Origin: Siphonodentalium dalli
Lineage: Eukaryota; Mollusca; Scaphopoda; Gadilida; Siphonodentaliidae
DNA length: 64,000 nt
Reading direction: 5' to 3'
NCBI GenBank assembly: GCA_032622095.1
Contig: CP136069.1
Location: 101,708,278-101,772,277 of the forward strand
Shown: positions 8,415 to 57,640 of the stretch, in pieces
How the letters are laid out: the number at the start of each line of letters is the position of its first letter
Position numbering within the stretch: position 1 is the first letter of the stretch
Notes under the pieces: model-generated
What the model was told of the DNA's origin: nothing
What the model saw: only the letters and a program-made list of their open reading frames with translations
Databases searched by the model: none
Program-made: the position numbers and the translations under genes

Positions 8415-9329
8415 AACAAGAGGTGGGCAATCGAGTGCTAGCATACCCCCACCGTGGCACATTCAACCCGCATTATCCGTAAACCCAACATAAAATATTT
8501 TTAACTTTAAAGAAAAATTTGGATTAATAATTTTGATATTGGTTCAATTTCCAACTAGAGGTGTGACTGTCCCAATGGGACCACGGATACCCCCCTGTTT
8601 TTAAAATACTAAGATGTTTCACATGTCACTAAACATTTAGTTAAAATAATAAAATAACAGTTCCCATTGCAGGTGTACAACCATAACCCTACTCTTAAAC
8701 CTATTGATAAAAAAATGTAGGAATAAAAGCTTGGACAAAATTATGTATGTTGCGAAAAAAATTCTAAGTTGAAAAAGGGGAATAACTCCACACAAAAAAT
8801 GTCGGACAGACGTCATAATCGCAGGTGCACAGGTTCCCATGGTACTAAATATCAGTGCCAAGATTAAAAAACATTGACCGAAAAATGTAGGAATAAAAGC
8901 TCGGACAAAATTATGCATGTTGCAAAAAAAGTTTCTAAGTCGAAAAAGGGGGATAACTCCACCAAAAAATGTCGGACAGACGTCATAATCGCAGGTGCAC
9001 AAGTTCCCATGGTACTAAATATCTGTGCCACGTTTTTAAAAAATTGACGGAAAAATGTAGGAATAAAAGCTCGGACAAAAGTATACATGTTGCGAAAAAT
9101 TTCTAAGTCGAAAAAGGGGGATAACTCCACCAAAAAAAGTCTGACACACGTCATAATCGCAGTTGCACAGGTTCCCATGGTGGTTGATGTCTGTGCCAAG
9201 TTTCACGGAAATTGATCAAAAAACGACTGAGAAAAACTCCGGACAAATTTGTGTCCACGGACGGACGACGGACGGACGGACAAGCTGACTCCAGTATACC
9301 CCCCCTAACTTCGTTGCGGGGGGTATAAT
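8415..9329 (+). mobile_element. F3 element with 170-bp tandem modules and 3' hairpin
   Basis: It begins AACAAGAGGTGGGCAATCG and has GCATACCCCC close to the 5' end, matched in inverse by GGGGGGTATAATT at the 3' end. The 3' hairpin is ATACCCCCCCTAAC / GTTGCGGGGGGTAT. The phrase GGAATAAAAGC recurs at exactly 170-base intervals (8721, 8891, 9061), so the body is about 3.5 modules. A GACGGACGACGGACGGACGG spacer precedes the hairpin. Minus-strand ORFs of 61-121 codons here only reflect the repeat lacking stops. Confidence 0.75.
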
Positions 9330-9963
9330 TAAACAATCCAAACTTGAGTTATCATCCGGAAACCAAAGAAAAAAAAGAAAATTGAATTTTCTAAGTCGAA
9401 AAGCCCATAACTCAGAAAAAAATCATCGGATCAAACTCAAATTCGAACTTGACCTGTATTTTGATATCATTGACTCACACACAAACTGAATTTTCAATTG
9501 AACAGTCCAAACTTTAGTTATCATCTGGAAACACCCAAAAAAAAATTAAATTAGAATTTTCTAAGTCGAAAAAAGTCCATTACTCTAGAAAAAATCATCG
9601 GATCAAACTCAAATTCGAACTCAACCTGTATCTTGATATGACTGATCTACAAAAAAACGGTATTTTCAATTAAAGGATCCAAACTTGAGATATCATCCGG
9701 AAACCGAAAAAGTGAGAATTTTTTCAAGTCGAAAATGAGGCGTAACTTTTAAAAAAAAAGACGGACCAAACCGCAATTAGCATCATGCGGTCCTAAGGAG
9801 ATTGCATACAAAAAATTATTGAAATTGGTTCATAGTTGTTCGAAGTTATGAGGTCGGACGGACGGACTGACAGACGGACACACGGAGGGAGAAAGCGTGA
9901 CGGACAGAAGCAGTCAATCCAGTATACCCCCCATTTTCTTCGAAAGTGGGGGTATAATTATAG
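9330..9963 (+). mobile_element. Second hairpin-ended module element, 3' part
   Basis: Two to three diverged modules contain TTTTCTAAGTCGAAAA, CATCGGATCAAACTCAAATT and TCCAAACTTGAG. A GGACGGACGGACTGACAG spacer follows, then a hairpin GTATACCCCCCATTTT / AAAGTGGGGGTATAATTA at about 9921-9960. No separate 5' head was found. The preceding F3 element may have landed at its edge. Confidence 0.6.
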
Positions 9964-10045
9964 ATGATAATTTGTCTGACCAATTGATTACATGGAGGAA
10001 TATCATCTGTGATTTTTTTATTGTTGATATCCAACCAATCTTGAA

Positions 10046-11007
10046 AACAAGAGGTGGCATCAGAGATGATGTGTCTCATTTTCGGTGGCTTACCGCCGGT
10101 GGCTACCGCCAATTGGTGTGCATCAGTATCGGTAGACTAATTAATAGGTAAAATCGGTTAATATTTGTTCAAGTTATCGCGCTAACGGCCTCAAAATCGC
10201 GAAGAATTCACAAATGACTAATTAAGGGCCATAACTCTATCAAATTTTATCGGGCCAGGCTGGTTTTCGAACTCGTCCGAAATATTCTTGGCAAGTATGT
10301 CTATTCCAAATTTTAAACAAATCGGAGTCCGTTTGTTGAAGTTATCGCGCTAACGAGCTAAAAATTCATGAAAAATGACTAATTAAGGGCCATAACTCTA
10401 TCAAATTTTAATGGGCCAGGCTGGTTTTCGAACTCGTCCAGGATATTATTGGAAGACACTTATATACCAAATTTTAGTTGAATCGGATGACGTTTGTTGA
10501 AGTTATCGCGCTAACGAGCTCAAAATTCGTACAAAATGACTACTTAAGGACCATAACTCTATCAAATTTTATCGGACCGGGCCGGTTTTCTAACTCGTCC
10601 GAGGTATTCTTGGGAGACACCTATATATCAAAATTTCAATCAAATAGGATGATGTTTGTTAAATTATCGCGCTAACGAGCTGAAATTTTTTGAAAAAATG
10701 ACTAATTAAGGGCCATAACTCGATCAAATTTTATCTGACCTGGCCGGTTTTCGAACTCGACCGAGATATTCTTGGGAGACACCTATATACCAAATTTCAA
10801 TCAAATCGGATAACGTTTGTTGAAGTTAACGCGCTAACGAGCTGAAAATTCGTGAAAAATGGCAATAAATGAACCCGATTTTTTGTCTGCAGCTTACGGG
10901 CATGGATATGTACTCACACACCAAATTTTGTTTTAATCCGTCCGCCGCCCGCCCGCCCACCGTCCCTCATCAAACTATAAGTCGAGTTTTGGAAAAAAAC
11001 TTGACTA
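10046..11007 (+). mobile_element. Tandem-module element with five 161-168-bp units
   Basis: The head AACAAGAGGTGGC (10046) is the same type as in F3 and F4. The phrase TATCGCGCTAACG recurs at 10175, 10343, 10504, 10665 and (as TAACGCGCTAACG) about 10827. Each module carries GACTAATTAAGGGCCATAAC and GGTTTTCGAACTCGTCC. After the last unit comes a GTCCGCCGCCCGCCCGCCC spacer and a terminal hairpin AAGTCGAGTTTT / AAAACTTGACT ending near 11007. No coding sequence. Confidence 0.72.
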
Positions 11008-11590
11008 AAAATGTGTGGTATAATATATATATATATATACACCAAGGACTTTTGTCACATGTGTCCATCTTACCTGCAATAACAACATTGTCCAATGTAT
11101 TTGCCAAGCACATGTACATGCATAATATAAAAGGTTATTGTAAGTCCCTAACTAAACTGAAAATGCAATAAAACATTTGAAATTGTATGGCTTTTCAAAC
11201 AGACTCAGCCAATATTTGTGAACTTTGAAATGCACACATGTATATTTTACCTGTTGTCATGGCACAGTAAATCACAGGTAAATGGACTATAGGTTCCAGG
11301 AGGTTTAGTAGAACATCAACGTAAAACTATATTAGAGATGTAGTATTCATATTGCACCACCAATAACAGAAAACAAGATGTAAAAAGCGATTTTACTTAA
11401 CGAGACGAATTGACAGTCACACAAACATACTCATTTGATACTTCAATATCTCCCGAAGCGGAATACATAGATTGCCATAGGTATCAATTACTATTATAGT
11501 GTATAGTACACATAACATGCACATACTATTTTCTAAAATATTATTGCCAGATATTCAGGGTTGTGGGATATATGTAACTATGATATTCAG
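11008..11590. other. Unassigned sequence
   Basis: AT-rich sequence with a (TA)n run near 11020-11038. No gene, repeat unit or RNA recognised. If the host gene's next exon lies close to 12242 it would be expected to be Ser- or Lys-rich on the minus strand; nothing of that kind is visible here. Confidence 0.4.
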
Positions 11591-11599
11591 TGATGAAAG

Positions 11600-12012
11600 A
11601 GTTAAATAAAAAAAAAAAAAAATTTTGTTTTGAGTTTTGTCCCTGGTTCCACCCACATTTGACCCAGTGCCCACATTTGAACCCCAGTCACCCAAGGACT
11701 CTTCAGACAAAATATGAACCCATTCGACCCGATGGTACAAGAGAAGAAGTCATTTTAAGAAATACTATGGAGGTAAAGAGTTATGGCCCTCACTTCGCAA
11801 CTATTGGTCCAGGTGACCTCATTTGAACAAATCTGAATGTGAGTCACCTAGGGAACATCCACACCTAATATTGATCCCAATCTGTCTTATGGTTCTGGAG
11901 AAGATGTTTAAAGAATTGTTGATGGACAGTCGGATGGACGGATGGATAGATGGATGACGGACAAGGAGTGATGACTATAGCTCCATCGGAGACTTCCTCT
12001 CAGGTGAGCTAA
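11600..12012 (+). mobile_element. F2 element, 3' portion with terminal repeat
   Basis: After an A-rich run come F2 modules (GTCCCTGG, TTTGACCCAGTG, CACCCAAGGA, ACTATGGAGG), a GGACGGATGGATAGATGG spacer and the end CTCCATCGGAGACTTCCTCT followed by CAGGTGAGCTAA. The same end occurs at 14960-14997 and 56910-56943. GGTGAGCT is the reverse complement of the AGCTCACC near the F2 heads (43386). Confidence 0.7.
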
Positions 12013-12373: not shown

Positions 12374-12479
12374 CTACAAAATATAAATTGAACATAAAAA
12401 TTCCAATTCTGACAGTTTTGAAACATTTAATTATGAAAATTATGCAAATGAGAACCCTATTTTAAAGCATCTGATATTT

Positions 12480-12875: not shown

Positions 12876-13870
12876 CTATACAAGACAGTCAAAGACTGAT
12901 AAGACTGGGACTCTTGAGACCATAACAGTCAGAACTTTTCATAACCACTTTAAAAGAAGTAGATCTAAACAGGATATGTGGCTAGAGAGGCTTCATGTCG
13001 ATCGGTGAATATCTACCTTTAATTTACCAATGGAACACTACAGATCCCCCCTCGTCAGCTCAACATATCCCCTCCTGACCGGGCTCTTAGGTTGGAATTT
13101 CACAACTGACATTTCAAACTTTCTCAATTGTTCGAAATTTCAAATCTCACAAGCACCTTTTTATAAACTATTTAGATATGTTTGAAGCCCAATTATCCAT
13201 GGACCCGAAAACACCATATATATATATGTCAGATTAATCAGTCAGGTAGTTCCAAGGTAGATGTTTTAAGTGAAGTCCCCATAGCCCCGTCATTTCTTAA
13301 CAGGTTGACCTCATGTTAACAAATCTGAATCTCAGTCACTAAAGGATCCTCCATACTATATGTAAGCTAAATAGTCCAACCTCTCTTGAGAAGACATTTT
13401 AAGTAATTACTATAGAGACATACAGTTATGTCCCTGGTCCCACTCTATTTAATCTGGTGACCCCATCTGAATAAATTTGAATCCCAGACACCAAAGAACC
13501 CTTCATACTAAATATCAGTAAATAGATGGCCTGTGTGAAGGAAGCATATTAAGAGGAAAACTGTCCTTTGCTTGGCCCCTAGTTGACCAGGTGACCCCAT
13601 TTAAAACAAATGACCCCATTTGAAAAAAATCTGAACTCCGGGTCACCCAAGGACCCTTCATACCAAATATGAACCCATTCAACCTGATGGTACAGCAGAA
13701 TAAGTAGTTTTTAAGAATTACTATGGAGGGCAAGAGTTATGGCCCTGCCTTCATAACCATTTGACAGAGTGACCTCATTTGAACAAATCTGAATGTGAGT
13801 CACCTAGGGAACATCCACACCAAATATGAACCCATTCAGTCTAGAGAAGATGTGAGCTCAAAAATTATAT
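12876..13870 (+). mobile_element. F2 element copy A
   Basis: The head region (AAGACTGATAAGACTGGGAC, GATATGTGGCTAGAGAGG) aligns with the heads at 22440 and 43380. Modules with CAGTCACTAAAGGATCCTCC, TACTATATGTAAGCTAAATA and GGAAGCATATTAAGAGG follow in the same order. The copy fades near 13870. No coding sequence. Confidence 0.7.
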
Positions 13871-14449: not shown

Positions 14450-14998
14450 AAAATGTAATTTTTTGTATTTAGAGTTATGTCCCTGGCTCTGTCCCTATTT
14501 GACCCAGTGACCCAATTTGAAAAAACTCCATGGACCCATTAGATCCATCCGTACCAAATATAAGCTAAATCGGCCAAACTTTTTTGAGAAGATGTTATTC
14601 TAAGAATTACTATGAGGAAGAGAGTTATGGCCCTGGTTTCTCAACTAATCAACCTGGTGACCTCATTTGAACAAATCTGAATCCTAGTCATTCAAGAACC
14701 CCTCATACCAAATATAAGCTAAATTGGACCAATGGTTCTATACAAGAAGTTGTTTTAAGATATACTATGGAGGGAAAGAGTTATGGGCCTGGCTTCGCAA
14801 CTATTTGACCCAGTGACCTCATTTGAACAAATCTGAATGAGAGTCACTTAGGGAACATCCACACCAAATATGAACCCATTCTGTCCAATGGAATCAGAGA
14901 AGATGTTCAAAGAATTGTTGACGGACGGATGGAAGGACGACGGACGAGGAGTGATGACTATAGCTCCGCCGGAGACTTCGTCTCAGGTGAGCTAATAA
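14450..14998 (+). mobile_element. F2 element, 3' portion
   Basis: Modules (AGAGTTATGTCCCTGG, TGACCTCATTTGAACAAATC, CCTCATACCAAATATAAGC) lead into a GGACGGATGGAAGGACGACG spacer and the end TAGCTCCGCCGGAGACTTCG plus CAGGTGAGCTAA (14987-14998). TCCGCCGGAG and the GGTGAGCT end are shared with the copies ending at 12012 and 56943. Confidence 0.72.
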
Positions 14999-15413: not shown

Positions 15414-16335
15414 ATGATGGAATTTAGGTCAAGTTGTTTAGAATTTGGCAAGAAAGGGAAAAACAGTTATGCTACGAGGACTTTGCCCGAACGAAGCTTG
15501 AACAAAACGCTTGTCGTGCAATTTTGTTTAAGGCCTGCGTGCAAAGAGTTAAATCCAAGATGGCCACTGGCAGCCATGTTTTCATCGAAAATTTGAAAAA
15601 ATTTAATGCCTCCCATCTAGTGGTCACCAAAAAGATCCATATCATGTTTGGTGACGATCGAAAGAGGGATGTGGTCTTTAGGGTGAGCCAAAGGATTTAG
15701 TAAAGAGTAAAATACAAGATGGCAGCTGGTGCACATGTTTTTCAATGAAATTCGGTCAAAATAAGAGGCTCCCATCTAGGATCACCCCAAAGATACATAT
15801 AAAGTTTGGTGACAATCGGATGAGAGATGTGGCCTGTAGGGTGTGTCAAAGGATTTAGTCATACAAAGAGTAAATTCCAAGATGGCCACAATGTTTTTCA
15901 ATGAATTTCGGTCAAAATACGGAGGCTCCCATCTAGTGGTCATCCTGAAGATCCATTTGAAGTTTGGTGATGATCAGATAAGGGATGGGGTCTCTAGGGT
16001 GTGCCAAAGGATTTAGTCACGCAAAGAGTAAAATCAAAGATGGCTACCGGCGGCCATGTTTTTCAATGAAAAATTTGATAGCTCCCATCTAGAGGTGATC
16101 CTAAACATGCCTGTAAATTTTCAAAACAAATCTCCAATAAATGTGGGCTGATGGCTTATGTGGATCTAGGTCACCGGAAGTTCCGAAAATCCAAATGAAG
16201 TTTGGTGATGAGCTGACGAGAAATGTGAAACAAAGGGTGTGCTAACGGAAATTGTAGATGGATCACAGACTCACATACGGACGACGGACACCAACCCACA
16301 ACAATATCTCAAACTTGATTGTCAAGTTGAGTTAA
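15414..16335 (+). mobile_element. F1 element, 3' part with terminal hairpin
   Basis: Four to five modules (CAAGATGGCCACTGGCAGCC, CTCCCATCTAG, TTTGGTGACGATCG, GTGAGCCAAAGGATTTAG) run towards a spacer (ACGGACGACGGACACC) and a hairpin TATCTCAAACTTGA / TCAAGTTGAGTTA at 16305-16334. This subtype has the GATCCATATGAAGTTTGG phrase that the 5.3-7.7 kb copy lacks. The plus-strand ORF at 15434-15700 is read through modules and is not a gene. Confidence 0.7.
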
Positions 16336-16616
16336 AATAGATAGTTATATGTATACACATTGAATAAATGCTTCCATGGATGCATTAATGCTGCATAATT
16401 GAAAATGTTTGACCATCCAACTCCATGTGATTGGAAATATTTTCCTATGCTTAGGTTTTGCTTCCACTTCCATGGAGCATAAATTTATAGGCGTACTAAA
16501 CAAGTAAACTATAGTCTTAAAACTGAAATAATGAGCTTTGATAACTGGACAATTGTTTACAGTGCATATTTTCACGTTGGAAATAGTAAAACAAGAAAAT
16601 ACAAAATGGTACTTAC

Positions 16617-16793
16617 ACTTACTGTAAGGCTTTCTGGGCTTCTTGGTAAGACAAGACATCACATATCGCTCTAATTCTCTTAGAGTGGAAGGTTTCAGAG
16701 TTTCAAAATCTATTTCGATTTCATCTGGATTTGAATCTCTGAGGGACGGTTCTCGAGACTGAATTATATGCACCACTCGACCAAGCTTATCGC
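16617..16793 (-). CDS. BET bromodomain protein, main ET-domain exon
   Basis: Minus-strand exon starting after acceptor TTCCAG with GCGATAAGC; the split Gly completes NKLPG from the upstream exon. It encodes [48 protein letters not shown] and TKKPRKPY. This is the signature of the BET extra-terminal (ET) domain, including the acidic EIEIDFE strand that in BRD4 contacts Lys-rich partner peptides. Two in-frame donors sit 6 bases apart (GTAAGTGTAAGTAC): use of the first ends the exon at 16623, the second at 16617 and adds two residues. Both leave phase 1 and join in frame to the exon at 12373. The ET domain recruits chromatin and transcription factors in the nucleus. Assigning BRD2, 3 or 4 is not meaningful for an invertebrate single-BET lineage. 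Confidence 0.95.
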
Positions 16794-16847
16794 CTGGAAC
16801 ATAAATTTACAATATGCAACAATCAGCCATGATTATCACCTAGAACA

Positions 16848-19655: not shown

Positions 19656-19663
19656 GTCGATGC

Positions 19664-22351: not shown

Positions 22352-22439
22352 AAACGTGCAATGATATCTTTTACACACAGGGGTCCGGGAACATTTTTTT
22401 TATCATTTTATGATATTAATTTTAAAAAGACAGTCAATG

Positions 22440-23157
22440 ACTGGGGTCGCTCACCAGACTGCAAAGCCTGATAAGACTGGGACTCTGGAGACCACAAGTC
22501 AGAACTTTTCATAATCACTTTAAAAGAAGTAGATCTAAACAGGATATGTGGCTAGAGAGGCTTCATGTATGTAGATCGGTGAATATCCACCTTGAAATTA
22601 CCAACAAGTCCCCTCCCAAGTCTTGGGTTGGAATTTCACAACCGACATCTCAAACTTTCACAATTGTTGGAAATTTCCAATCTCACAAGCGCCTTTTTAT
22701 AAAACCATTTAGACATGTTTGAAGCCCAATTATCCATGGACGCAAAACACCATACATGTATGTCAGATTAATCAGTCAGGTAGTTCCAAGGTACTAGTAG
22801 ATGTTTTAATGAATTTGGTATTTCAATGATTTTATTAGATACAAAAGTGTTAACTCCCCATAGCCCCGTCATTTCTTAACAGGTTGACCTCATGTTAACA
22901 AATCTGAATCTCAGTCACTAAAGGATCCTCCATACTATATGTAAGCTAAATAGTCCAACCTCTCTTGAAAAGACATTTTAAGAATTGCTATAGAGACATA
23001 CAGTTATGTCCCTGGGGACTCCATCTGAATAAATTTGAATCCCAGACGCCAAAGAACCCTTCATACTAAATATCAGTAAAATAGACCTGATGGTCCTTGT
23101 GAAGGAAGCATATTAAGAGGGAAACTGTCCTTCGCTTGGCTCCTATATGACCAGGTG
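22440..23157 (+). mobile_element. F2 element copy B, left part
   Basis: The head GTCGCTCACCAGACTGC and following GATATGTGGCTAGAGAGG align with copies at 12876 and 43379. Modules continue to CTATATGACCAGGTG, where the sequence breaks. It resumes at 26992 with ACCCCATAAAAAAAATCTG, exactly as the uninterrupted copy C reads at 44188-44220. Confidence 0.75.
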
Positions 23158-23969: not shown

Positions 23970-23981
23970 GGGGGGGGGGGG
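23970..23981. repeat. Poly-G tract (12)
   Basis: Uninterrupted G run inside the 23158-26991 element. Confidence 0.95.
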
Positions 23982-43376: not shown

Positions 43377-44460
43377 AACAAGACAGCTCACCAGACTGCA
43401 AAGACTGATAAGACTGGGAGACCACAACAGTCAGAAATTTCATAATCACTTTAAAACAAGTAGATCTAAACAGGATATGTGGCTAGAGAGGCTTCATGTA
43501 TGTAGATCGGAGAATATCCACCTTGAAATTACCAACTACATGTATACACTACTGATCACACACCCCCCCCCCCCCCCCCCCCCCCTCCTCCAGCTCAACA
43601 AGTCCCCTCCCGACCGGGCTCCAGACTCCCAAGTCTTAGGTTGAAATTTCACAACCGACTTCTCAAACTTTTCAATTGTTGGAAATTTCCAGTCTCTCAA
43701 GCGCCTTTTTATAAAAACATTTAGACATGTTTGAAGCCCAATTATCCATGGACCCAAAACATCATACATGTATGTCAGATTAATCAGTCAGGTAGTTCCA
43801 AGGTATATGTTTTAATGAATTTGGTATTTCAATGATTTTATTAGACACAAAAGTGTTAACTCCCCATAGCCCCATCATTCCTTAACAGGTTGACCTCATG
43901 TTAACAAATCTGAATCTCAGTCACTAAACTAAAGGATCCTCCATACTATATGTAAGCTAAATAGTTCAACCTCTCTTGAGAAGACATTTTAAGAATATAG
44001 AGACATACATGTACAGTTATGTCCCTGGTCCCACCCTATTTAACCTTTTTTGACCACATCTGAATAAATTTGAATCCCAGACACCAAAGAACCCTTCATA
44101 TTAAAAACCAGTAAAATATACCTACTGGTCCTTGTGAAGGAAGCATATTAAGAGGGAAACTGTCCTTCGCTTGGCCCCTATTTGACCAGGTGACCCCATT
44201 TAAAAAAATATAAATTGAGTCAAACAAGAACATTCCATGCTAAATAAGCCAACTAGTTCTTGGCTCTTGCAAACATATTTTAAGAATTACTATGTGGTGG
44301 AATAGTTATGTCTCTGGCTCTGCCCTTATTCGACTTTGTGATCACATTTTCACAAATCTGTCACCCAAGGTAATTTCATACCAAATATAAGCAATATAGC
44401 CAATTGTTGCATAGAAGACCGATCATGAATTACTATGGAGAAAACGAGTAATGTAGCTGG
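43377..44460 (+). mobile_element. F2 element copy C, left part (most complete)
   Basis: Head AACAAGACAGCTCACC with AGCTCACC inverse to the F2 3' end. Modules follow in the order seen in copies A and B. A poly-C tract lies at 43563-43585. At 44460 it is split by a hAT element and resumes at 45509 after an 8-bp duplication. Confidence 0.78.
43563..43585. repeat. Poly-C tract (23)
   Basis: Uninterrupted C run inside F2 copy C; copies A and B lack it at this point. Confidence 0.95.
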
Positions 44461-44468
44461 CCTTGCAT

Positions 44469-45508
44469 TAGGGCCCTGCGAATCGGCGATTTCATTTCGA
44501 ATCGAATCTCGAATCGAATCATGAGAATTATTCGCGAATCGAATCAAATCTCGAATCGAATCTACACCTTTCGCGGACATCGAAATTTAGCATGATTTTA
44601 CCGGAGAAAAGTTGAACGAACACCATTAGATTCGTGTAAATCATAAACAACTCGACGTGTGTCTTAATTTCATTTCTTCTGCGTAAGAAATTAAGAATAT
44701 AATGTACTATTTTAGTCATTTGCATGGCTCGGGTTCAAACATCGGCGTTAACCATCGCGCAAAATAGTCATACTTTTCGATCAAATAATCAACAATGTTA
44801 CGATACAGACTCAAAAGGTCTCCCATCAACGACAACAAATGATAGAAGGGCTGCATCAAACTTTTTTTTGTGTCTGGCATAATTATACGTTTGGGGACGA
44901 AATGTTGGCCCATCGTGGACTGTTTCTTGGGTGCAGAATCATGATCACCTACTTGCGAATTTTCTGGAAGTTCAACTTTCATCTTTTTTGAATTTTCCGT
45001 TTGTGTCGTTCTCTCGAACAGAGCGGGTGCTTCTGCTGGACATGCAGCCTAAGGTGTGTTGTTGTTGTACCCGTGGGTTGAACAGACAAAAGCGTGGTGC
45101 AGTGCTTGCACACATATTTTTTCTCGCCTTTTAATAAATTGAACAGACAACGAAACTCAGCCATTTTGGTTTTGTATTATTTTGTAAACACGCGCCTCAT
45201 GAATTCCCAATTACATCCCTTCAATAGTCATTACGACATTACCTACCTTGGTTCTATTTATAGATTATTGGTCGACGCGGCGATCCGTTTGATCTCGATG
45301 TCTCGAGCCGCACAGTTATTTCTTTGTTCATAGGGCATAACAGTTGGGTTGTTTTCATCGGGTTATGACAGTTGAATGAGTTGACTGCCTATATATGATG
45401 TCTGATCATGAATGATTCGAAAATACTCGAATCGGACAGTCGAATCGAATCGAATCAGGACGACCGATTCGCGAATCGAATCGAATCTCGAAGCTTCGCA
45501 GGGGCCTA
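44469..45508 (-). mobile_element. hAT-like element, copy A2, with transposase remnant
   Basis: Terminal repeats TAGGGCCCTGCGAATCG and CTTCGCAGGGGCCTA are flanked by a perfect 8-bp duplication CCTTGCAT (44461-44468 and 45509-45516). Sub-terminal arrays of GAATCGAATC lie at both ends. The terminus matches copy A1 (863-3783) but the sub-terminal unit differs. It retains the N-terminus of a hAT transposase on the minus strand, so it is an internal-deletion derivative. Confidence 0.92.
44716..45164 (-). pseudogene. hAT transposase N-terminus with BED zinc finger
   Basis: Minus-strand frame 45164-44979 encodes MAEFRCLFNLLKGEKKYVCK, then HCTTLLSVQPTGTTTTHLRL and HVQQKHPL: a BED-type finger (CX2C...HX4H) at residues 18-50, as found at the N-terminus of hAT transposases. 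The next frame, overlapping at 44982, carries KKQSTMGQHFVPKR, the typical post-BED linker, then a hydrophobic stretch to 44716. The shift between frames and the missing RNase-H-like core and hATC domain show it is dead. Confidence 0.75.
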
Positions 45509-45640
45509 CCTTGCATCTACTTGACCTGGTGACCCTGATTGAACAAATCTGAATCACAAATCACCCAAGGAGCCTCAATATTAAATATGAGCTAAATAGA
45601 GCTGGTGCTTCTTTCAAAGAACACTTTTCAAGTTTGCCAA
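45509..45640 (+). mobile_element. F2 element copy C, right part
   Basis: Resumes with CCTTGCATCTACTTGACCTG and CAAGGAGCCTCAATATTAAA, matching copy B at 27265-27362. Confidence 0.7.
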
Positions 45641-45847: not shown

Positions 45848-46552
45848 ACTAGCAGGTGGACTCGACTTCGTCAGGGCTGTTTCCCACTCTGCTTTTCGGC
45901 GAATTGTGCGATTTGACCTTGAATTGACCCGTCCAAAACACTACCCGGACAAAAGTACCCATCGAAATCCATCCGGTTTTACCCGATTTGACCTTGAATT
46001 GATCATTTTGAAGGTCAAGGTCAGGACGGGGTCACGATTTGACCCGTCCAAAACACTCAGTGGACAAAAGTAACCCTATGTATCAAATTTCGTGGAAATC
46101 CCCATCAAAATTCGCGATTTGACCTTGAATTGACCCGATTTCAAGGTGTCACGTCCCACGGGCAAATGAATAGGCTTATGAGACTCCCCATACGAAAGTA
46201 TCCCTAGACACTAATTTTCATCGAAATCCCGTGATATTCGGGCGTTTGACCTTCAAATGACCCGATTTCAAGGTCAAGGTCACATCGCACAGGCAAATTA
46301 ATAGGCCTATGCCACTCCCCGGCCGAAAGTACCCCCACATACCAATTTTCATCGAAATCCCGTGATATTCGGGCGTTTGACCTTGAAATGACCGGATTTC
46401 AAGGTGAAGGCAACGTCGCACAGGAAAATTAATTCGCCTATGCCACTTCCCGGGCCGAAAATACCACCACTTACTAAGTTTCATCAAAATCGGCTCGGCC
46501 GTTTTCGAGTCCATCGCGAACACACACAGAGATTTCCCAAAATATATAATAG
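45848..46552 (+). mobile_element. RTE-like LINE/SINE tail, first copy
   Basis: Starts ACTAGCAGGTGGACTCGACT and ends AAAATATATAATAG. It contains about 120-bp modules with GATATTCGGGCGTTTGACCT, CAAGGTCAAGGTCA and ACCAATTTTCATCGAAATCC, and closes with AAGTTTCATCAAAATCGGCT. RTE-type LINEs and the SINEs they mobilise often have such 3' tails (ATCGG...CGTTTTCGAG, then ACACA and a TATA run). No RT sequence, so it may be a tail-only copy. Confidence 0.5.
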
Positions 46553-46930
46553 ACTAGCCGATGAGCCCGACGTTGTCCGGGCTATTCAAAAAACAAATTT
46601 CAAGTCGATAGCTCCACCCGTTTCCGAGATCTTGTCTCCGCATGCGCGAAGCTTGCGTCGCACGGGCTCGGCGACCCGATAAAATTTGTATCCGGGGCAA
46701 GATACATTCACATAGCAAATTTCAAGCCGATAGCTCCACCCGTTTCCGAGTTCTCGTCTGCGCATGCACGAAGCGGGCGCCGCACGGGCTCGCCAATACG
46801 ACAACGACGACCGCCTGGTCAAACTACACAAACATACCAAGTTTCGTCCCAATCGGTCGAGAATCGTAGATTTGTATAAATGACAGACAAACAAACATAC
46901 AGACAGACAGAGGTCTTCAAAATATATATG
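46553..46930 (+). mobile_element. RTE-like tail, second copy (two modules)
   Basis: Starts ACTAGCCGATGAGCCCGACG; a module with TTTCAAGTCGATAGCTCCAC, GCATGCGCGAAGC and GATAAAATTTGTATCCGGGG occurs twice. Ends AGACAGAGGTCTTCAAAATA then TATATGAG. ORFs on both strands exist only because the modules lack stops. Confidence 0.55.
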
Positions 46931-47443
46931 AGACTAGCCGATGAGCCCGACGTTGTCCGGGCTATTCAAAAACCAAATTTCAAGTCGATAGCTCCACCCG
47001 TTTCCGAGATCTGGTCTGCGCATGCGCGAAGCTTGCGTCGCACGGGCTCGGCAACCCGATAAAAATCGTATCCGGGGCAAGATACATTCACATAGCAAAT
47101 TTCAAGTCGATAGCTCCATCCGTTTCCGAGATTTTGTCTGCACATGCGCGAAGCTGGCGTCGCACTGGGCTCGGCGACCCGATAAAATTCGTATCCGGGG
47201 CAAGATACATTCACATAGCAAATTTCAAGTCGATAGCTCCACCCGTTTCCGAGATCTCGTCTGCGCATGCGCGAAGCGGGCGCCGCACGGGCTCGCCAAT
47301 ACGACATCGACGACCGCCTGGTCAAACTACACACACGTACCAAGTTTCTTCCCGATCGGTCGAGAATCGTAGATTTGTATAAATGACATACATACATACA
47401 GACAGACAGACAAACAAACAGAGGTCTTCAAAATATATATGAG
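46931..47443 (+). mobile_element. RTE-like tail, third copy (three modules)
   Basis: Same start ACTAGCCGATGAGCCCGACG and same end as the previous copy, joined head to tail at AAATATATATGAG. It contains three modules rather than two. Confidence 0.55.
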
Positions 47444-47740: not shown

Positions 47741-49066
47741 ACTAAATGTAGGACCTGTAGCCCTTGCTAAAGGATTTAGTCAGGCCTTCGATTATGAGGC
47801 GTGCGATCGTGCTCGCGCACTGAAATTAAATCTTGGCGAGTAATTAATCACACTCCTCGGCGATATTCGGCGCACGATTGAAAAAGGGTTTATAATAACG
47901 ATCAACCTTGTTTGCTGGAGAAGACTGACAGACATGCCGTATACGACGGAAGTAATTGTTTTAAGTTTTGCGCATGCGCTAGAACATTATTATAGTCAGG
48001 TGCGTTTAGCGATGTCGTCGCATTCGTATGCAGGTCTGAGTAATTCTCCGCTAGATATTGTTACCAACATGAAATATTTAAATTAATCCCACCATGCACC
48101 CCATCACCAATGCAACGTAATTTTGGTACCATGATTGTGTTGCGTTCTAAATGAAGCCGCCCCGATGGGCGGTGAAGATGAATAGAAATTGAAACTTGAG
48201 TTCGGGGCAATCAAACATTATTTTTTAAAATATCGATAGAGTTCACACAACAGGAAACTCTCACGTGGTTACATGGTCTCTGACCGCATTTCATAACAAC
48301 TTACATCCAACGGAAGCATTACGACGCAATTCGAGAATGGAGTTTTAATTACTTCAATGTGGAGAATACATGTGTACAAGATGAATCACAATGGTGATAA
48401 AATTGATTTAATTTTGAGTCTTCGTTTGTCATTTTATACCCCCGAAATATCCACCAAAATCACACGCCTGGGTTTCAGGTTAGGCGAGTGACCAACCACA
48501 CTCCTGCATTTTACAGAATCGAAGGCCTGATTTAGTCATACAAAGAGTGAAATCAAAGATGCCTGCTGGCGGCCATGTTTTTAGGCCGAATGACCCCAAA
48601 ATGACTCGTTCTCATCTACATGTCATTATTAACATTCTTGACAAATTTTATTATGATCAGACTAAAAGTACGACCTGTAGCCCGTGCTAAAGAATTTAGT
48701 CATACAAAGAGTAAAATCCAAGATGGCTGCTGGCGGCCATGTTTTTGGGCCAAATGACCCCAAAATTACTCGTTCCCCATCTACATGTCAATATTAACAT
48801 CCATAACAAATTTCATGACGATCAGACAAATAGTACGCCCTGTAGCCCGTGCTAATGGATTGAATTTTGAAATACAAGATGGCCACTGGCGGCCATGTTT
48901 TTTTAACGAATGACCCCAAAATTATCATTCTGGTCTAAATGTTGATGTCAACAGCTATGACAAATTTCATAATGATCCGACCAAAGGTACGACCTGTAGA
49001 CTGCATTGTTGACGCCTTACGTACACACGCACACACGGACGACAAAGCCATGGCAATAGCTATAAT
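47741..49066 (+). mobile_element. F1 element, interrupted by a hAT-like insertion
   Basis: F1 modules (AGGACCTGTAGCCCTTGC; later CATGTTTTTAGGCCGAATGA, ACTCGTTCTCATCTACATG) on both sides of 47782-48528. They end in the spacer CACACACGGACGACAAAGCC and CATGGCAATAGCTATAATAA, a degraded version of the 3' end seen at 7615-7656. Confidence 0.65.
47782..48528. mobile_element. hAT-like element E nested in F1
   Basis: Inverted ends AGGCCTTCGATT and AATCGAAGGCCT are flanked by GATTTAGTC on both sides (47773-47781 and 48529-48537); because of overlap with the terminus the duplication is 8 or 9 bases. The intact F1 phrase GGATTTAGTCAT elsewhere confirms the empty site. Sub-terminal GCGATCGTGCTCGCGC and TTGGCGAGTAATTAATCACA recur inverted (GGCGAGTGACCAACCACACT). 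No coding sequence. Confidence 0.82.
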
Positions 49067-49390
49067 AAGCCCTTTAAAGGAAACAAGTCGTCCTGTTCCC
49101 GGTTAATAATATATAAATACTTATGAGGAAGCATTGGAATGCCCAGACATGACAGAGAATCAACAACATATTAGCACACCTGTGCATTGTTAGGAAGAAA
49201 CTCGGAATGTCAATCTACTTGAGAGACGCCCACGTGTGCATATTACGCAATAGATTGAACATTTCTAACCAACACTCTAAATTGCCCATACTGTCAATCA
49301 ATACAGAAGACAAGCTGGTAGGAGGAGTGGTCAATCATGATGACGACACAATGGTTACCATACTATGGTATGGGTAAACATAAAACACTG
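49067..49390 (+). mobile_element. F4-type 3' hairpin end
   Basis: GGTTACCATACTATGGTATG GGTAAACATAAA at about 49351-49383 repeats the F4 terminus at 40655-40684, preceded by GTGGTCAATCATGATGACGA. Upstream 49297-49330 is the reverse complement of 21316-21347. The modules normally preceding an F4 end are absent. Confidence 0.6.
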
Positions 49391-51040: not shown

Positions 51041-51336
51041 TGCAGTATGCACTTAGGTGTTTTGTTTGCGGACAGTTGGTAGCATGCTCGCAGGTCGGTA
51101 ACATTTTTCCAGCTAGGCTAGAAAATCAGAAACAAGCATGTTTTTTATTGTGACCTTATCCTCTGAAACAAATGATATCAACAATATCAAATACATAATT
51201 TACATTTACAAGAAGAAATTAGCTGAAGGCGGAACCATACTTACACGGGTCTCCTTTCGAATCACAATATTACGGTAATCCAATAATGAAAATGATCTAC
51301 ACACATGATCACACTTAGCGAAACGATGAAACCTAC

Positions 51337-51757
51337 CTGGCAATTTATTAATGTCTAAACTAAGTTGTCGTTTTTCATCGTAAGTCATCGGCTTCGCATT
51401 GTCTTCATCGTCACTATCGGGATATGAAACAGACACAGTTGTTGAAGATGATGGCAACTGAGGTGCCTTTTTATGCTTTGAGCCAGATGAACGATTATTT
51501 GGTCGAATTTTTTTAGTAGAACCCGATGGAGATTTCTGTGCCTTCTTTTTCTTTGGTTTTGAGTCACTAGATGGCACAACAGTCACAGGGTTCGACATAG
51601 GAGCGGGAGGGGGTAATATGGGGGTTTCTGTAGTCCTTTCCTTCTCCTTTTCTCTCGGTTTTTTCTTTTTCTTAGTTTTTAAACGTTCTTTCTTTTCCTT
51701 TAATTTTTTCATATGAATCTGAGTGAGATTATCTAACTGATCTTGAATATGCCGCAA
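51337..51757 (-). CDS. BET bromodomain protein, linker and ET-start exon
   Basis: Minus-strand exon of 421 bp between acceptor CATTTCAG and donor GTAGGT. It encodes LRHIQDQLDNLTQIHMKKLK, continuing a helix from the upstream exon, then a Lys-rich block (KTKKKKKPREKEKE), a Pro/Ser linker (TPILPPPAPMSNPVTV), a second Lys/Ser block (SKPKKKKAQKSPSGSTKK), an acidic DSDDEDN, and the start of the ET domain KPMTYDEKRQLSLDINKLPG. BRD2/3/4 have the same order: EL.EQL..VHEQL, KKKEKKKK, then KPMTYDEKRQLSLDIN. It starts in phase 0 and ends in phase 1. The basic blocks are likely nuclear-localising. Upstream in-frame sequence to 51868 is intronic. Confidence 0.95.
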
Positions 51758-51973
51758 CTGAAATGACAGAAATATGTGACTGTTTTTTTTCTGATTGACC
51801 AAATTCTGAATAAGGTGAATTGGGAATTTCAAAAAAGAAATTAAGAAAAATGAAAGTGTCAATGACACTGTAGCTCAACTTGGGGAGGAGTTAATTTTTT
51901 GCCGAGCAATGAATAGAATGATAAAAGACAGTCAAAAAGTTACAGTAAAGGGCTTGTATTGTGTAGATGTAGT

Positions 51974-52971
51974 TAGGGGTGCCACATTCAATCGTATAAT
52001 CGATGAACCATTGATAAAGCCGATAATCGATTACAATTTCCATCGTCGATTAATCTCATTATTTATTTCAGTCGGAAAATGCATGGTGTTATTGAATACT
52101 GTGTTTGTTTTAAACAGTTTAATCTACAACCGAAGGGTTAACTACCTTTGATCATGTATCAATGAGCTTCCGAAAACATGAGTACTACTAACTTATGTTG
52201 CAAGCAGTCGCAGGTTCATTGGATGATGCGACATGATTACTCTTTGGGTCGTTGTATATTCTACAAATTGGCGGTACGGCAGCTTTGAACTTTTATTGTA
52301 TATTTAGGCTTGAAAGGCGGCACGATCTCTTTGAAATGTGCCGACTGTCACCGTGTTCAATGAACTGAATGCACTCGCCCTTGAATCTGATTGACCAATG
52401 GGGAGTTGACTGACATTCTCTGGAAACCAGGGAACCTACGGCATTTTAGTCAGCGATGTCATTTGTGAGTATACTGTTTGCAAAAGTATACTTAGATGTT
52501 ATTGGTACAGGCTATCGCGTATCATGCTGTGAGTGCTGAATGAAACTCGATATTATCAAATACTTAACTTGTTCTGCAATTTGCGAGTGGGGGGGCACAT
52601 CTTTGTGATTGTTATCCACGCTCTCGAAGTTTGATGAAACTTATAGTTTCCTTGTTTAGGAATCACCGGCCATCCATCGTGCATTCCTACATTTATAATG
52701 TTTGCATGTTTGGCTATTCATAACACTGAAATTAATCGCTACGTTCGTTCTAATGAACTCACAAATATTATAACATCGCCGAGAACTGCGCTGGTATTGA
52801 ATTCATTGTGTTCATTGGTCATTAACAAACAACCAGCGACAGTGCAGTTAACCAGCACCCAACATTATGGCCATATTATGGAATACTTCCACTGATGTTA
52901 TTAGGTATGATTAATCAATTACAGTCGATTATTGACTATCGATTTCAAAATCAATAATCGTGGCACCTCTG
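51974..52971. mobile_element. hAT-like non-autonomous element D
   Basis: TAGGGGTGCCAC on the left and GTGGCACCTCTG on the right form the TIR, flanked by a perfect 8-bp duplication GATGTAGT (51966-51973 and 52972-52979). Sub-terminal arrays of ATCGATTA-type units lie at both ends (TAATCGATGAACC, GATAATCGATTAC; GTCGATTATTGACTATCGAT). Interior frames do not resemble transposase. Confidence 0.9.
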
Positions 52972-53363
52972 GATGTAGTTTGGTGCAATTCAAATTTGAA
53001 ATCCAAGATGATTGCTGATGGCCATGTCTTTAACAAACTATGGAAATAATCGATGGTGTCCATCTAGAGGTCACCCTGAAGATCCATATGACGTTTGGTG
53101 AAGGATTTTGTCATGCAAAGAGTATAATCTAACATTTGCCGCTGGCATCCATATTTTTCCAACATATTTCAGAAATAATCAATAGCTCCCATCTAGAGAT
53201 CACACCGAAAATCCATATGAAGTTTTGTGATGATCGAATGAGGGATGTGGCGTGTACTGAAAGATTTTGTCATGCAAAGAGCAAAATCCAAAATGGCCAC
53301 TGCCAGCCATATTTTTCTACGAATTTCGGAAAAAAAATTGATGGCTCACATCTGGAAGTCACC

Positions 53364-54732
53364 TAGTCCAAGTCTTCTCGTACTAAAACTAGCTAAGATT
53401 TTGGGATGGAGAGACGCTAGTGTTTAGTCCGAGAACGCGCGCATAGCCTTCTTATGACATGAGTTAAGCGTTAATGACCCGCTCAAATAAAACCACAATT
53501 ATATGAAATAAAATATCACAATTGCGACAATAAAAGATATTTTCCGCAGAAGACATGCTATTTGATCTGAACCCCACATCAGTTGTGAATTGAAAGCGGT
53601 AATTTAATGCGAAAAGAGACATTTACCGCAATGTTTACAAATTTTTAAAAGTATGCGAACTCAGTTGACCTCGCGAACTGTGTTCGGCATTTTCCGTTGA
53701 AAATATTCCGTAGATTTTCGACTGACAACGCAAATTACGATGAATTCTCCATTGTAATCGTAATTATGTGTGTCAATAAATAAAAAATAAATAGATTAAT
53801 TAAACATTGAAGATATAAATGTAATACATTAAATAAATTACGGAGAATTACAACCCTCTCAAAGTTTAAAACAGTGTAAACACAACGAACATTAGAATAA
53901 ATAATATGGTGCTACATTTCCCACATTTGGTGGACTTCAGCGAAATTAAGATATATACTAAGCGAACAGAGCAATATACTGCTCTTGTTAAGCACACAAA
54001 AAAATCAAACAAAATTTGTATAAATTTTTAACCTTAAGTTTGAAAAGTCCCACTAAAACGGAAGAACTATATTTCGAAACTGTGTGATTCGGTTCTCCGA
54101 TTATTTTATCAACACAAAAGTCAAAATGCACATGGATGAAAATCACACGCATGGCAAGTCAGACACAAGAGTTCTAATTTGCTCCAATTTTGACAAGTTG
54201 CTTGCGAAAATTGTCAACAAAACTACCTTTCTGATCCTCCATTATGTCATTTTAGTTTTTAGTGCGGGAATTGTTCTCAAAGCACATTGGAAACTGGACT
54301 TTGCGGCGATCGGTTTTCACCATTTTGTTCGGAAAACACCGCGCTATATATAGAAACGGAAACTAGAATACTCAGAATAAACACCGGACAATGCCGAAGT
54401 TCTTCGGAACCTGAGTTCGGCTTTCAGTTAAGTAAACAAACAGAAAAAACAACGATGTTTGTGGCAATCAACCGGAATATTCTATGTGTAATTTAACATT
54501 AAAGTTAGATTATTATACACCATTCTGACCATAAGATGTCACTCTTTCCGACGTATATAGCATCATGTATTGCTTTGTTAGGTAAATCGAGTAAAATACA
54601 CCACAGATTCCCGCCACAGATCCTGGGCGTAACTCGTGTCATAAGAAGGCTATGCGCGCGATCTCGGACTAAACACTAGCATCTCTCCATCCCAAAATCT
54701 TAGTTAGTTTTAGTACGAGAAGACTTGGACTA
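53364..54732. mobile_element. Mutator-like element with about 100-bp TIRs
   Basis: The first roughly 100 bases (starting TAGTCCAAGTCTTCTCG) are repeated inverted at the end with about four mismatches. A 9-base duplication GAAGTCACC flanks it (53355-53363 and 54733-54741). Long TIRs and a 9-bp duplication are the classic structure of Mutator-like elements. The interior includes GCGAACTGTGTTCGGCATTT and frames of up to 89 codons, none recognised as MULE transposase. Confidence 0.85.
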
Positions 54733-55250
54733 GAAGTCACCCTGAAGAAACATAAAGTTTGATGATCCAATGAGGGATGTCGTCTGTAGGGTGTGCCAAA
54801 CGATTTAGTCATGCAAAGAGTAGAATACAAGATGGCTTGTAAATTGTTCAAATTTGACAGCTCCCATCTAGAGGTGATCGTAAACATGCCTGAAACATTT
54901 CAAAATATTTCTCCGATAAATGCGCGCTTCAGGGTGCCGATGGATTCAAATTTGAAATCCAAGATGGCTTCTGGCGGCAATGTTTCTTCAAACTTCAGAA
55001 CAAAATTGATGGCTCCCATCTAGAGGTCAACCCAAAGATAATTATGATCGTACAGGGAATGTGGCCTGCAGGGAGTGCTGAAGGATTTAGTCAATCAAAC
55101 AGTAAAATCCAAATTGGCTGCTGGCAGCCATGTTTTTCAATAAATTTCGGAAAAAACATTGATGGCTCCCATCTAGATCACCCATATCAAGTTTGGTGAT
55201 GATAGGATGAGGGATGTGGTGTGTATGGTGCGCCCAAGTTTTCAATCTGT

Positions 55251-56649: not shown

Positions 56650-56806
56650 GAATTGATGTAAAGTGAAAAGTAATCATCATAATTTCACATTTATCACTTG
56701 TTTACCTGGATGTAAAATAGGGCGCGTGTATATATATATATGTGATTAATTGACTAACCGTCGATTATAAAGGTTGATTAGTCAATTCTGAAAAGTCAGT
56801 CGTGGC
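56650..56806. mobile_element. hAT-like right-end fragment
   Basis: TAACCGTCGATTATAAAGG, TTGATTAGTCAATTCTG and the end CAGTCGTGGCAACC resemble the D element terminus. 56690-56722 (CACTTGTTTACCTGGATG, AAAATAGGGCGCG) is inverse to 18503-18535. The left end is not visible. Confidence 0.5.
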
Positions 56807-57065
56807 AACCATATATGAACCCATTCGGTCTTATAGTTCTGGAGAAGAAGACATTTGTTGACAGATGGATGGAGGATGGACAGAGGATGGATGAGGAGTG
56901 ATGACTATAGCTCCACCGGAGACTTTGTCTCAGGTGAGCTGAAAAAGCTCGGATCAAACCGATATTAAAACTTGATCTGTTTTTGGGCTAAGAAACTCGT
57001 ATATAACATTTGGTTCTGATCGGACAGAAAATGTTTTAGTTTCAAAAGGGCGTATAAAAAATTTG
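56807..57065 (+). mobile_element. F2 3' end followed by an F4-type module
   Basis: TATGAACCCATTCGGTCTTA, a GATGGATGGAGGATGG spacer and TAGCTCCACCGGAGACTTTG with CAGGTGAGCT (56934-56943) form an F2 end. 56945-57055 then reads like one F4 module (CTCGGATCAAACCGATATT, CATTTGGTTCTGATCGG, CAGAAAATGTTTTAG). Confidence 0.6.
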
Positions 57066-57108
57066 GCTGTCATAATCAAAAACGTGCCTGCCTTTAATTA
57101 AATCTCAC

Positions 57109-57339
57109 CTGATCCTGCAATCGGGCTATTTCTTTTTCTCGCTCTTCATCACTATCATCCTCACCACTTGAGCTCCCTGAAGCTTCATCACTCGATTCAG
57201 CAGTTCCTGCAACCATCTCCACTTTGGGATAGGATGACACAGCATTTATTGCTGCAGCCGCAGGGGGAGCCGGTGGCAGAGGTTCGGGAATCAACTCTGA
57301 ATCCTCAGGAATCACTAGAATTTTTGATTCAAAAACATC
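57109..57339 (-). CDS. BET bromodomain protein, exon after bromodomain 2
   Basis: Minus-strand exon of exactly 77 codons between acceptor TTCTCCACAG and donor GTGAGA. It opens with DVFESKILVIPEDSELIPEP. In BET proteins DVFE.R....PDEP directly follows the last helix of bromodomain 2 (KLQDVFE), so the preceding exon should encode that domain. Next come a Pro/Ala stretch (LPPAPPAAAAINAVSS), an acidic-Ser cluster (ESSDEASGSSSGEDDSDEER) like the conserved phosphorylated motif of BET proteins, and EKEIARLQDQ, the start of the helix continued in the 51757 exon. No bromodomain exon was seen up to 64000. Confidence 0.93.
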
Positions 57340-57488
57340 CTGTGGAGAAAATGGTTAAAGTGTCTTAAACTTTGAAGAGATAAGATCATTTTCATCCGTT
57401 ACTCTAGCTCTTCTAATTCAAATCAGCCAGTTTTGTAATCACAGGTGCACATGTTCCCGTGGTACTAACTATCTGTACCAAGTTACAA

Positions 57489-57640
57489 AACAAGAGGCCG
57501 ATCGTGGTGTTTAACACATACCTTCAACCATACCAACTCAATCTAGACTGAATATACTCCTACTCAGTAACTCATAAAATGTCCATGCTAAAAGTTATGA
57601 TACATCACTTCAAAATATCTGTATTATAAATAACAAGACA
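57489..57640 (+). mobile_element. F4-type 5' head
   Basis: AACAAGAGGCCGATCGTGG then GTGTTTAACACATACCTTC parallels the F4 head at 38301-38345. Modules and the 3' hairpin do not follow; piggyBac begins about 200 bases later. Confidence 0.5.

Follow-up and report, generated by a model that had tools for sequence, protein, structure and literature searches.

The window analyzed here, a 64-kb stretch of DNA, holds several elements built of tandem modules that share one short terminal sequence, which raises the question of whether a common end was joined to unrelated bodies or was simply inherited. The sequence-only reading had described five elements starting with a common 5′ head, and a motif search of the window found all five positions again, with AACAAGAGG at 8415, 10046, and 57489, AACGAGAGG at 38301, and AACAAGAC at 43377. 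We consider the elements, with a probability of roughly 0.85, to be several non-autonomous Helentron-type rolling-circle transposons (HINEs, DINE-1-like) of a mollusk-like genome, all oriented 5′→3′ along the minus strand, with AACAAGAGG as the rolling-circle 3′ terminus (CCTCTTGT by a T-rich target).

Elements, Layout, and Polarity

Families carrying the full tag are those at 8415 (A), 10046 (A′), and 38301 (B), while family C has a partial tag and family D none. The features are as follows.

8416 to 9958, minus strand: element A; outer 5′ end 9958, inner 5′ end at about 9329, single 3′ end 8416
9922 to 9958, minus strand: A, outer 5′ subTIR and IR hairpin (ATTATACCCCCAC...GGGGGGTATAC), dG −8.2
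9293 to 9331, minus strand: A, inner 5′ subTIR and IR hairpin, a second 5′ end within A, dG −10.1
9259 to 9281, minus strand: A, GTCC microsatellite of the inner end (GGAC on the plus strand)
9327 to 9705, minus strand: A, tandem array 2, 172-bp units (2.2 copies), homologous to the B modules
8711 to 9203, minus strand: A, tandem array 1, 170-bp units (2.9 copies)
8416 to 8423, minus strand: A, 3′ terminal tag CCTCTTGT; 3′ subTIR from 8441 (matched part 8443)
10047 to 11012, minus strand: element A′; tag CCTCTTGT, weak palindrome CATCA/TGATG, 161-bp modules (4.3 copies), 5′ hairpin 10980 to 11006
38302 to 40682, minus strand: element B; 5′ subTIR and IR 40648 to 40684, microsatellite 40588 to 40617, 148-bp modules (two units); on its 3′ side a subTIR (38327 to 38342), palindrome, and tag CCTCTCGT
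49322 to 49381, minus strand: second B-type 5′ end (B49), 87% identical over 69 bp to 40622 to 40689; B modules absent beside it
57490 to 57540, minus strand: second B-type 3′ end (B2), adjoining an A-type module fragment (nhmmer, 57414 to 57500)
43378 to 45610, minus strand: C copy; tag TCTTGT, 3′ palindrome missing relative to the copy at 22428, hAT-like insert at about 44471 to 45508
22428 to 27363, minus strand: C copy with the fullest 3′ end; GGTGAGC, palindrome CAGTCATTGACTG, interrupted at 23159 to 26989
12880 to 13860, minus strand: C copy; subTIR/palindrome region of the 3′ end partly missing
11977 to 12010, minus strand: C-type 5′ end (AGCTCACC and IR)
14960 to 14993, minus strand: C-type 5′ end
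56907 to 56940, minus strand: C-type 5′ end
5317 to 7658, minus strand: element D, complete; 5′ subTIR and IR 7624 to 7658, microsatellite, array of about 164-bp units; on its 3′ side subTIR TAAGTTGAGCTA, palindrome AGTGTCATTGACACT, no tag
16306 to 16333, minus strand: D-type 5′ end of a second D copy
51851 to 55247, minus strand: D copy; 3′ end at 51851, inverted-repeat-flanked insert at about 53363 to 54733

Read on the minus strand, a T-rich flank is followed by the 5′ subTIR, an inverted repeat (IR), the GTCC microsatellite, and the tandem repeats, and then by the 3′ subTIR, in some elements a palindrome, and another T-rich flank, as published for DINE-1 and Cg_HINE. This succession of parts bears out the Helentron-associated layout that had been proposed, while reversing the proposed polarity: by the published HINE/DINE-1 layout, what had been called the 5′ head corresponds to the 3′ terminus, CCTCTTGT directly followed by TT, and what had been called the 3′ hairpin to the 5′ subTIR with its IR. 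The shared "start" is thus most likely the tail end of the elements.

A GTCY-type microsatellite stands on the 5′ side of A (two), B, C, and D, and in the opposite orientation in A′; at the B-type 5′ end at 49381 none is visible. Central repeat units measure 170 and 172 bp in A, 161 bp in A′, 156 bp in C, and approximately 164 bp in D, with two units in B. The tandem modules and the GACGG spacer noted earlier are both real, except that the spacer at 10046 is reversed (CCGTCC) and that no tandem repeats were seen behind the tag at 57489. The inner 5′ end of A matches its outer one (z=17) and fits the published tandem HINEs with truncated inner copies. Array 1 of A also holds two open frames, of 112 and 125 aa.

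With a slash marking the edge, the 5′ ends read T/AGCTC, A/ATTATACC, and T/ATGTTTACC, and the 3′ ends ...CTTGT/T, ...CTCGT/T, or ...TTCA/T. A canonical Helitron, with 5′ TC, 3′ CTRR, and insertion between A and T, was considered and rejected on these ends. Seven of ten 3′ flanks begin with TT and five of nine 5′ flanks end with it, against a background of 0.107, these counts being post hoc as the edges were placed partly by eye. They omit the 5′ edge of A′ (flank ending in AC; 5/10 if included), the D 5′ end near 49061, which has no hairpin, and a D-like 3′ end near 16850.

Inverted Repeats and Hairpins at the Ends

Each element had been said to pair its head with a hairpin at the other end. 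Scored against 2000 random pairs, the 5′ and 3′ subTIRs match in A (ATACCCCCAC, p=0.0125), in B (ATGTTTAACCCATACC with a 1-nt gap, p=0.0005), and in D (p=0.0025), that is, in three of the four elements having both ends; for A′, a pair was not demonstrable (p=0.59). Neither 57489 nor 43377 has a hairpin partner of more than 6 nt within 4 kb. The GGTGAGCT ends that match 43377 stand at 12003, 14986, and 56933 and belong to other copies, so that C pairs across copies only. The claim hence holds at 8415 and 38301, fails at 10046, and is unconfirmed at 57489 and 43377.

An IR adjoining and complementary to the 5′ subTIR is present at ten of eleven 5′ ends (A two, A′, B two, C three, D two), the one without being the D end near 49061. 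By eye, IR and subTIR differ by a 1-nt indel in nine of these ten, all except A′, which has a mismatch in its place. Compared with shuffles, the 5′ hairpins fold well in A (z −3.6 for the outer and −3.2 for the inner end), B (−6.3), D (−7.1 and −3.1), and A′ (−4.2), and, taken at full length, in C3 (−4.4), B49 (−2.5), and C2 (−2.3); the C1 hairpin folds no better than its shuffles (−0.6). Palindromes at the 3′ end fold in B (z −2.7), in the C copy at 22428 (−4.1), and in D (−2.5), weakly in A′ (−1.1), and not convincingly in A and B2 (−0.05 and +0.78). In four of the five ends compared, pairing of the 5′ subTIR with the far 3′ subTIR is more stable than with its own IR.

The Tag as a Plausible Boundary

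AACRAGAGG occurs four times in the window, always on the plus strand, where 0.60 occurrences are expected, and one of 100 shuffles reached at least four. Outside the tag, the four flanks have little in common but an A-rich edge, their mean pairwise identity over 20 nt being 0.32 where 0.26 is expected, and the tag is therefore a plausible boundary; the 20 nt directly inside are likewise dissimilar (0.27). One octamer adjoins different subTIRs in different elements, and a terminus common to elements with differing subterminal repeats, as first suggested, is upheld. The picture of five elements with one head is narrower than that: the full tag stands at 8415, 10046, 38301, and 57489, but 57489 is another copy of family B (3′ end, z=8.8), and 43377 shares only ACAAGA.

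Two unrelated 35-nt stretches share some 8-mer with at most one mismatch and in similar register in 9.4% of cases, and an 8-mer fixed beforehand in 0.7%. Given chance sharing between 0.7 and 9%, the tag on its own is evidence of moderate weight.

A candidate tag on the opposite strand at 53965 to 53992 (AACAAGAGC, then a palindrome) was set aside, as it sits within an inverted-repeat-flanked insert; comparison with the second copy of that insert at 36954 to 37739 gave no clean empty site. Literature searches returned no paper for CCTCTTGT together with Helitron, and none for either ACAAGAGGCC or GGCCTCTTGT together with mollus, while ACAAGAGG alone is too frequent in the literature to discriminate.

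Common Descent or Exchanged Bodies

The bodies behind the tag had been taken to differ. The modules of A, A′, and B are nevertheless homologous (z 4.4 to 34, and 4.5 to 31 for slightly different stretches), and nhmmer links the B modules of 38301 to both A and A′. The nhmmer profiles of 8415 and 10046 find no mutual match at E 1e-3, and the stated difference holds only in part. Since the modules are homologous, common descent is enough to explain the shared tag, and bodies swapped behind it are not what the full-tag families display.

It is improbable that one replication machinery recognizes a common terminal tag onto which unrelated bodies and opposite ends were swapped. Four tags where 0.6 were expected, with different subTIRs behind the same tag, would agree with such a model, and so would B2, whose tag lies beside an A-type module fragment, and the B-type 5′ end lacking B modules; yet B2 can equally well have inserted into an older A copy. 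Exchange of modules behind related flanks, which also speaks for the model, is evidently possible, as the 5′ flanks of C and D are related (C2 to D1, z=7.3; C1 to D1, z=6.8) and their modules are not (z at most 0.6). Related ends with unrelated modules thus exist in a pair that had not been named, C having a partial tag and D none, and not in the tagged families.

We hold it to be just as improbable that the tag is a chance likeness, A, A′, and B being separate HINEs with CCTCTTGT placed coincidentally by T-rich targets. The 9.4% sharing in random pairs, the end of identity on both sides of the tag, and the 5′ flank of A′, unrelated to those of the other families (z −1.0 to 1.9), would fit this, whereas tag and subTIR are similarly far apart in A and B (17 nt, or 19 in A when matched bases alone are counted), the 3′ ends of A and A′ are related (z=4.3), and the tagged families have homologous modules as well. 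The 130-nt 5′ flanks of A and B (z 4.7 to 5.4; B49 about 0), A and C (1.6 to 5.3), and B and C (3.3 to 4.5; B49 0.2 to 2.7) also score, but no homology is claimed for them because they hold the microsatellite. Foldback or MITE-like cut-and-paste elements with subterminal repeats are very improbable: hairpins lie close to both ends, and DINE-1 itself was formerly classed as a MITE, but the ends are asymmetric, the flanks T-rich, and the GTCY microsatellite stands in HINE order.

Further Searches

Compared with Rfam at gathering cut-offs, the window gave no match, leaving a hammerhead-type reading of the tandem modules unsupported. Five patterns searched in viral contigs gave 0, 0, 1, 0, and 0 matches (the three module and end scans among them 0, 1, and 0), and the sole matching contig, L015, did not match the window at E 1e-3. 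A scan of genome contigs yielded 14 matches, all in prokaryote-titled records and taken as chance with an estimated 15 or so expected.

The 87 module matches all lie on one strand, mostly within a BET gene. Poly-A signals are a weak candidate for the cause of such a bias, with AATAAA found 7 times gene-sense and 16 times antisense in 14,096 bp of 16 element stretches, and 60 and 79 times, respectively, in the whole window. For the piggyBac-like element behind which B2 might continue, no second end was found; its left-end motif is exact at 57705, and the three two-mismatch matches lie elsewhere, none of them downstream.

Proposed Transposition Mechanism

For the Helentron-type elements, a Rep/helicase supplied in trans would nick the T-rich 5′ edge and peel off one strand, which would end at the 3′ palindrome and tag and be joined into a TT site without target duplication. 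A Pfam scan of eight window frames, all outside the elements' own sequence, gave no Rep/helicase. The tag would have persisted in A, A′, and B because these three share a common origin and because Rep probably contacts the bases next to the 3′ nick, with the subTIRs drifting faster than the tag and the repeats drifting or, between C and D, being replaced. More speculatively, CCTCTTGT beside TT might be an invariant Rep contact of molluscan HINEs, by which one Helentron Rep mobilizes families with differing subTIRs, combined with a bistable 5′ subTIR whose pairing with the distant 3′ subTIR might keep both ends in contact until strand transfer; we regard this wider proposal as rather doubtful.

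The corrected polarity bears on where replication starts and stops, and it ties module-rich mollusk-like repeats to DINE-1-type Helentrons. If general, the terminal octamer would provide a short searchable signature for the 3′ ends of HINEs and an aid in the search for their autonomous partner.

Comparison with Known Elements

The idea is not new, as elements with shared ends and unrelated repeats have been described in both oyster and Drosophila. Cg_HINE group 2 of Crassostrea gigas has common flanks and unrelated tandem repeats, and Cg_HINEs resemble the elements of the window in their subTIR, IR, GTCC-type microsatellite, repeats of mostly 140 to 180 bp, second subTIR, and palindrome, in insertion at T-rich/TT sites, and in double-array elements (PMC7492417). 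This likeness is one of layout. Descriptions of DINE-1, from another phylum, give a TATACCC-type subTIR by a TT site, a partial or interrupted IR, a 3′ stem-loop, a (CCGT)n(CTGT)n microsatellite, a conserved 90-bp core, and shared flanks with unrelated central tandem repeats that differ between types (PMC2374699, PMC4067079); DINE-1 subTIRs such as TATACCCTTGCAG are similar to that of A (TATACCC...). Eight C. gigas families (Helitron-N3/N4/N28... _Cgi) are reported to have common start and end segments, Box 4 and Box 5, of 53 and 42 bp (PMC8268682); in the window, the shared part is 8 bp long among A, A′, and B, and a diverged 5′ flank between C and D. Pearl elements CvA, CvE, and CvG of bivalves are likewise described as modular, with tandem repeats. 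SubTIRs are also reported for 257 of 751 intact C. gigas Helitrons, which keep the canonical TC and CTAG ends and mostly insert at AT (PMC7992393); the elements in the window lack such ends.

Polarity and plan of the elements

DINE-1 and oyster Cg_HINE elements (Helentron-associated non-autonomous elements, HINEs) follow one plan: T-rich site, 5' subterminal inverted repeat (subTIR), complementary inverted repeat (IR), GTCY/CCGT microsatellite, tandem repeats, 3' subTIR, palindrome and 3' end (PMC4067079, PMC7492417, PMC2374699). Written on the minus strand, the following elements fall into this order, and their GACGGACGG spacer becomes a GTCC microsatellite.

8416-9958, element A
10047-11012, element A'
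38302-40682, element B
49322-49381, B49, a B-type 5' end
57490-57540, B2, a second B-type 3' end
43378, 22428 and 12880, copies of family C
11977-12010, 14960-14993 and 56907-56940, C-type 5' ends (C1 to C3)
5317-7658, element of family D (5' end D1; D49 is the 5' end of another D copy, near 49061)

The polarity of the sequence-only reading was hence reversed: its common 5' head is most likely the 3' terminus CCTCTTGT beside T-rich DNA, and its 3' hairpin the 5' subTIR plus IR, both read on the minus strand. DINE-1 subTIRs, TATACCCTTGCAG among them, are similar to the subTIR of A (TATACCC...). TT was found at seven of ten 3' flanks and five of nine 5' flanks against a background of 0.107, with edges placed partly by eye and a tally leaving out the A' 5' edge (not TT), a hairpin-less D end near 49061 and a D-like 3' end near 16850. 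The flanks are compatible with TT insertion.

Among the four elements with both ends, pairing of the 5' and 3' subTIRs was significant in A (p = 0.0125), B (p = 0.0005) and D (p = 0.0025), but not in A' (p = 0.59). An inverted repeat joining every head to a hairpin had been proposed; it stands for A and B and fails for A'; for B2 (57489) and the C heads, no partner longer than 6 nt was found within 4 kb. For C, pairing is visible between copies only, and parts of the 3' end present in the 22428 copy are missing from those at 43377 and 12880. B, C (22428) and D have a good 3' palindrome and A' a weak one; A and B2 have none. A complete HINE of the same plan, D (5317-7658), lacks the tag, the terminal octamer discussed below. 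One D copy (49000-49064, compared by eye with 7600-7659) lacks the 5' hairpin, two AGCT repeats bordering the gap in the manner of hairpin slippage.

In element A, a single 3' end is preceded by two 5' ends, at 9958 and about 9329, and each of these comes with a microsatellite and an array of its own. This fits a tandem HINE that has lost the 3' end of its inner copy; tandem HINEs with truncated inner copies are described for oyster (PMC7492417).

By eye, a one-base indel separates IR and subTIR in nine of ten IR-bearing 5' ends (two of A, two of B, three of C, two of D), with an additional mismatch in B49, C1 and C2; A' shows a mismatch without indel. The 5'-3' subTIR duplex is more stable than the 5' subTIR-IR duplex in four of five ends (−13.4/−10.9, −15.2/−11.7, −11.2/−10.2 and −13.0/−12.3 kcal/mol), the inner A end being the exception (−10.7 versus −12.7 kcal/mol); these energies exclude loop costs, and the C value borrows the 3' end of another copy. 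Since the DINE-1 authors already call the IR partial or interrupted, the indel and stability pattern is a lead and not a discovery.

Module relationships and the terminal tag

The bodies of the five elements had been described as different; this does not hold among A, A' and B, whose modules are homologous. Smith-Waterman scores against shuffles were high for A array 2-B (z = 34; 31 on repetition), A'-B (26; 31) and A array 2-A' (9.9; 11.9), and lower for A array 1-B (6.5; 7.7) and A array 1-A' (4.4; 4.5). With nhmmer (E 2e-5 to 3e-19), B was linked to A as well as to A', while the A and A' profiles gave no mutual match at E 1e-3. The modules of C and D are unrelated to those of A, A' and B and to one another (z ≤ 2.8). 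From these comparisons, A, A' and B seem to be relatives that have diverged and share one terminal tag.

All five motif starts lie where they had been reported; these loci and the remaining modular arrays were inspected, and repeats of this kind point to a mollusc. AACRAGAGG occurs four times, always on the plus strand, against 0.60 expected from dinucleotide shuffling (at least four in 1 of 100 shuffles). Between the tag and the start of the subTIR there are 17 nt in A as well as in B (19 in A counting matched bases alone), and A and A' have similar 3' ends (z = 4.3). No conservation past the tag was found on either side, and some common 8-mer at one mismatch is expected between unrelated 35-nt stretches in 9.4% of cases (0.7% for a preset 8-mer). 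Evidence that the tag exceeds chance is moderate, and a common terminus is credible because the modules are homologous. No paper was found pairing CCTCTTGT with Helitron or the two tag strings with "mollus"; published end sequences are in figures and supplements, so this says little on novelty.

Related ends with unrelated modules

C and D modules are unrelated (z −1.8 to 0.6), but some pairs of 130-nt 5' flanks resemble each other (C2-D1 z = 7.3, C1-D1 z = 6.8 and C2-D49 z = 4.1), with the remaining six C-D pairs at −1.5 to 2.5. The C2-D1 alignment spans GAGCTAT before the microsatellite and GTCAACAATT after it. From flank comparison, this common stretch (GAGCTAT...GTCAACAATT) lies at:

7580-7659
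11890-12010
14890-14993

Likeness between the C and D 3' ends is weak, with p = 0.02 and 0.016 when two of the D copies are compared and 0.19 with a third.

Genomic setting and neighboring transposons

The two halves of a BET (bromodomain extra-terminal) domain are encoded in minus-strand ORFs, two exons of a BET-family gene:

16345-16806, minus strand, BET domain half (Pfam E 7.6e-18)
51206-51874, minus strand, BET domain half (Pfam E 4e-5, just under the curated cut-off)
about 12.2-12.4 kb and 57.1-57.3 kb, further plausible exons (by eye)

Given these positions, elements located from 12.4 to 57 kb occupy large introns of a single gene; D, A, A' and one C, at 5.3-12.0 kb, are past the last visible exon. 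Profiles of six module sets, those of A, A' and B overlapping, gave 87 matches at 5317-57500 in families A, A', B, C and D, all on the plus strand and none on the minus strand. Merging reduces them to 21 loci, and to about 18 once the copies that later insertions had divided are rejoined. On the opposite strand, self-BLAST (E 1e-6) detected no copies of the modules. In HINE polarity, all elements are sense to the BET gene and most lie in its introns.

Other transposons were also observed:

58781-60214, plus strand, PiggyBac-like transposase (DDE_Tnp_1_7), divided by a stop into two open stretches

Its possible left end is CCCTTTACCCATC after TTAA at about 57701-57705; a right end was not found. 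A transposon with inverted ends of about 107 bp (95%) sits within a D element (53363-54733) and has a second copy on the opposite strand (36954-37739, 87% alike). An insert inside a C element (44471-45508), with similar ends AGGGCCCTGCGAA / CTTCGCAGGGGCCT, is presumably hAT-like, the family name being a guess. The insert splitting C 22428-27363 contains a zf-RVT domain of a non-LTR retrotransposon (24620-25090, plus strand, E 4.3e-6). A modular repeat is duplicated in tandem at 46538-47440 (380-bp spacing, GCCCGACGTTGTCCGGGC near the start, ACAGACAGAC tail).

Comparison with known elements

What is left of the proposed superfamily of swappable bodies behind one head is three related families (A, A', B) with one tag, plus the C/D pair, whose 5' flanks are related and whose modules differ. 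This has precedents. The C/D pair matches oyster Cg_HINE group 2, in which unrelated repeats stand behind common flanks, here with a partial tag or none (PMC7492417). Eight oyster Helitron-N families have common start and end boxes (PMC8268682), and common flanks with unrelated repeats are likewise in print for Drosophila DINE-1 (PMC2374699, PMC4067079). The elements of the window are further members of the HINE/DINE-1 group, ordinary in kind.
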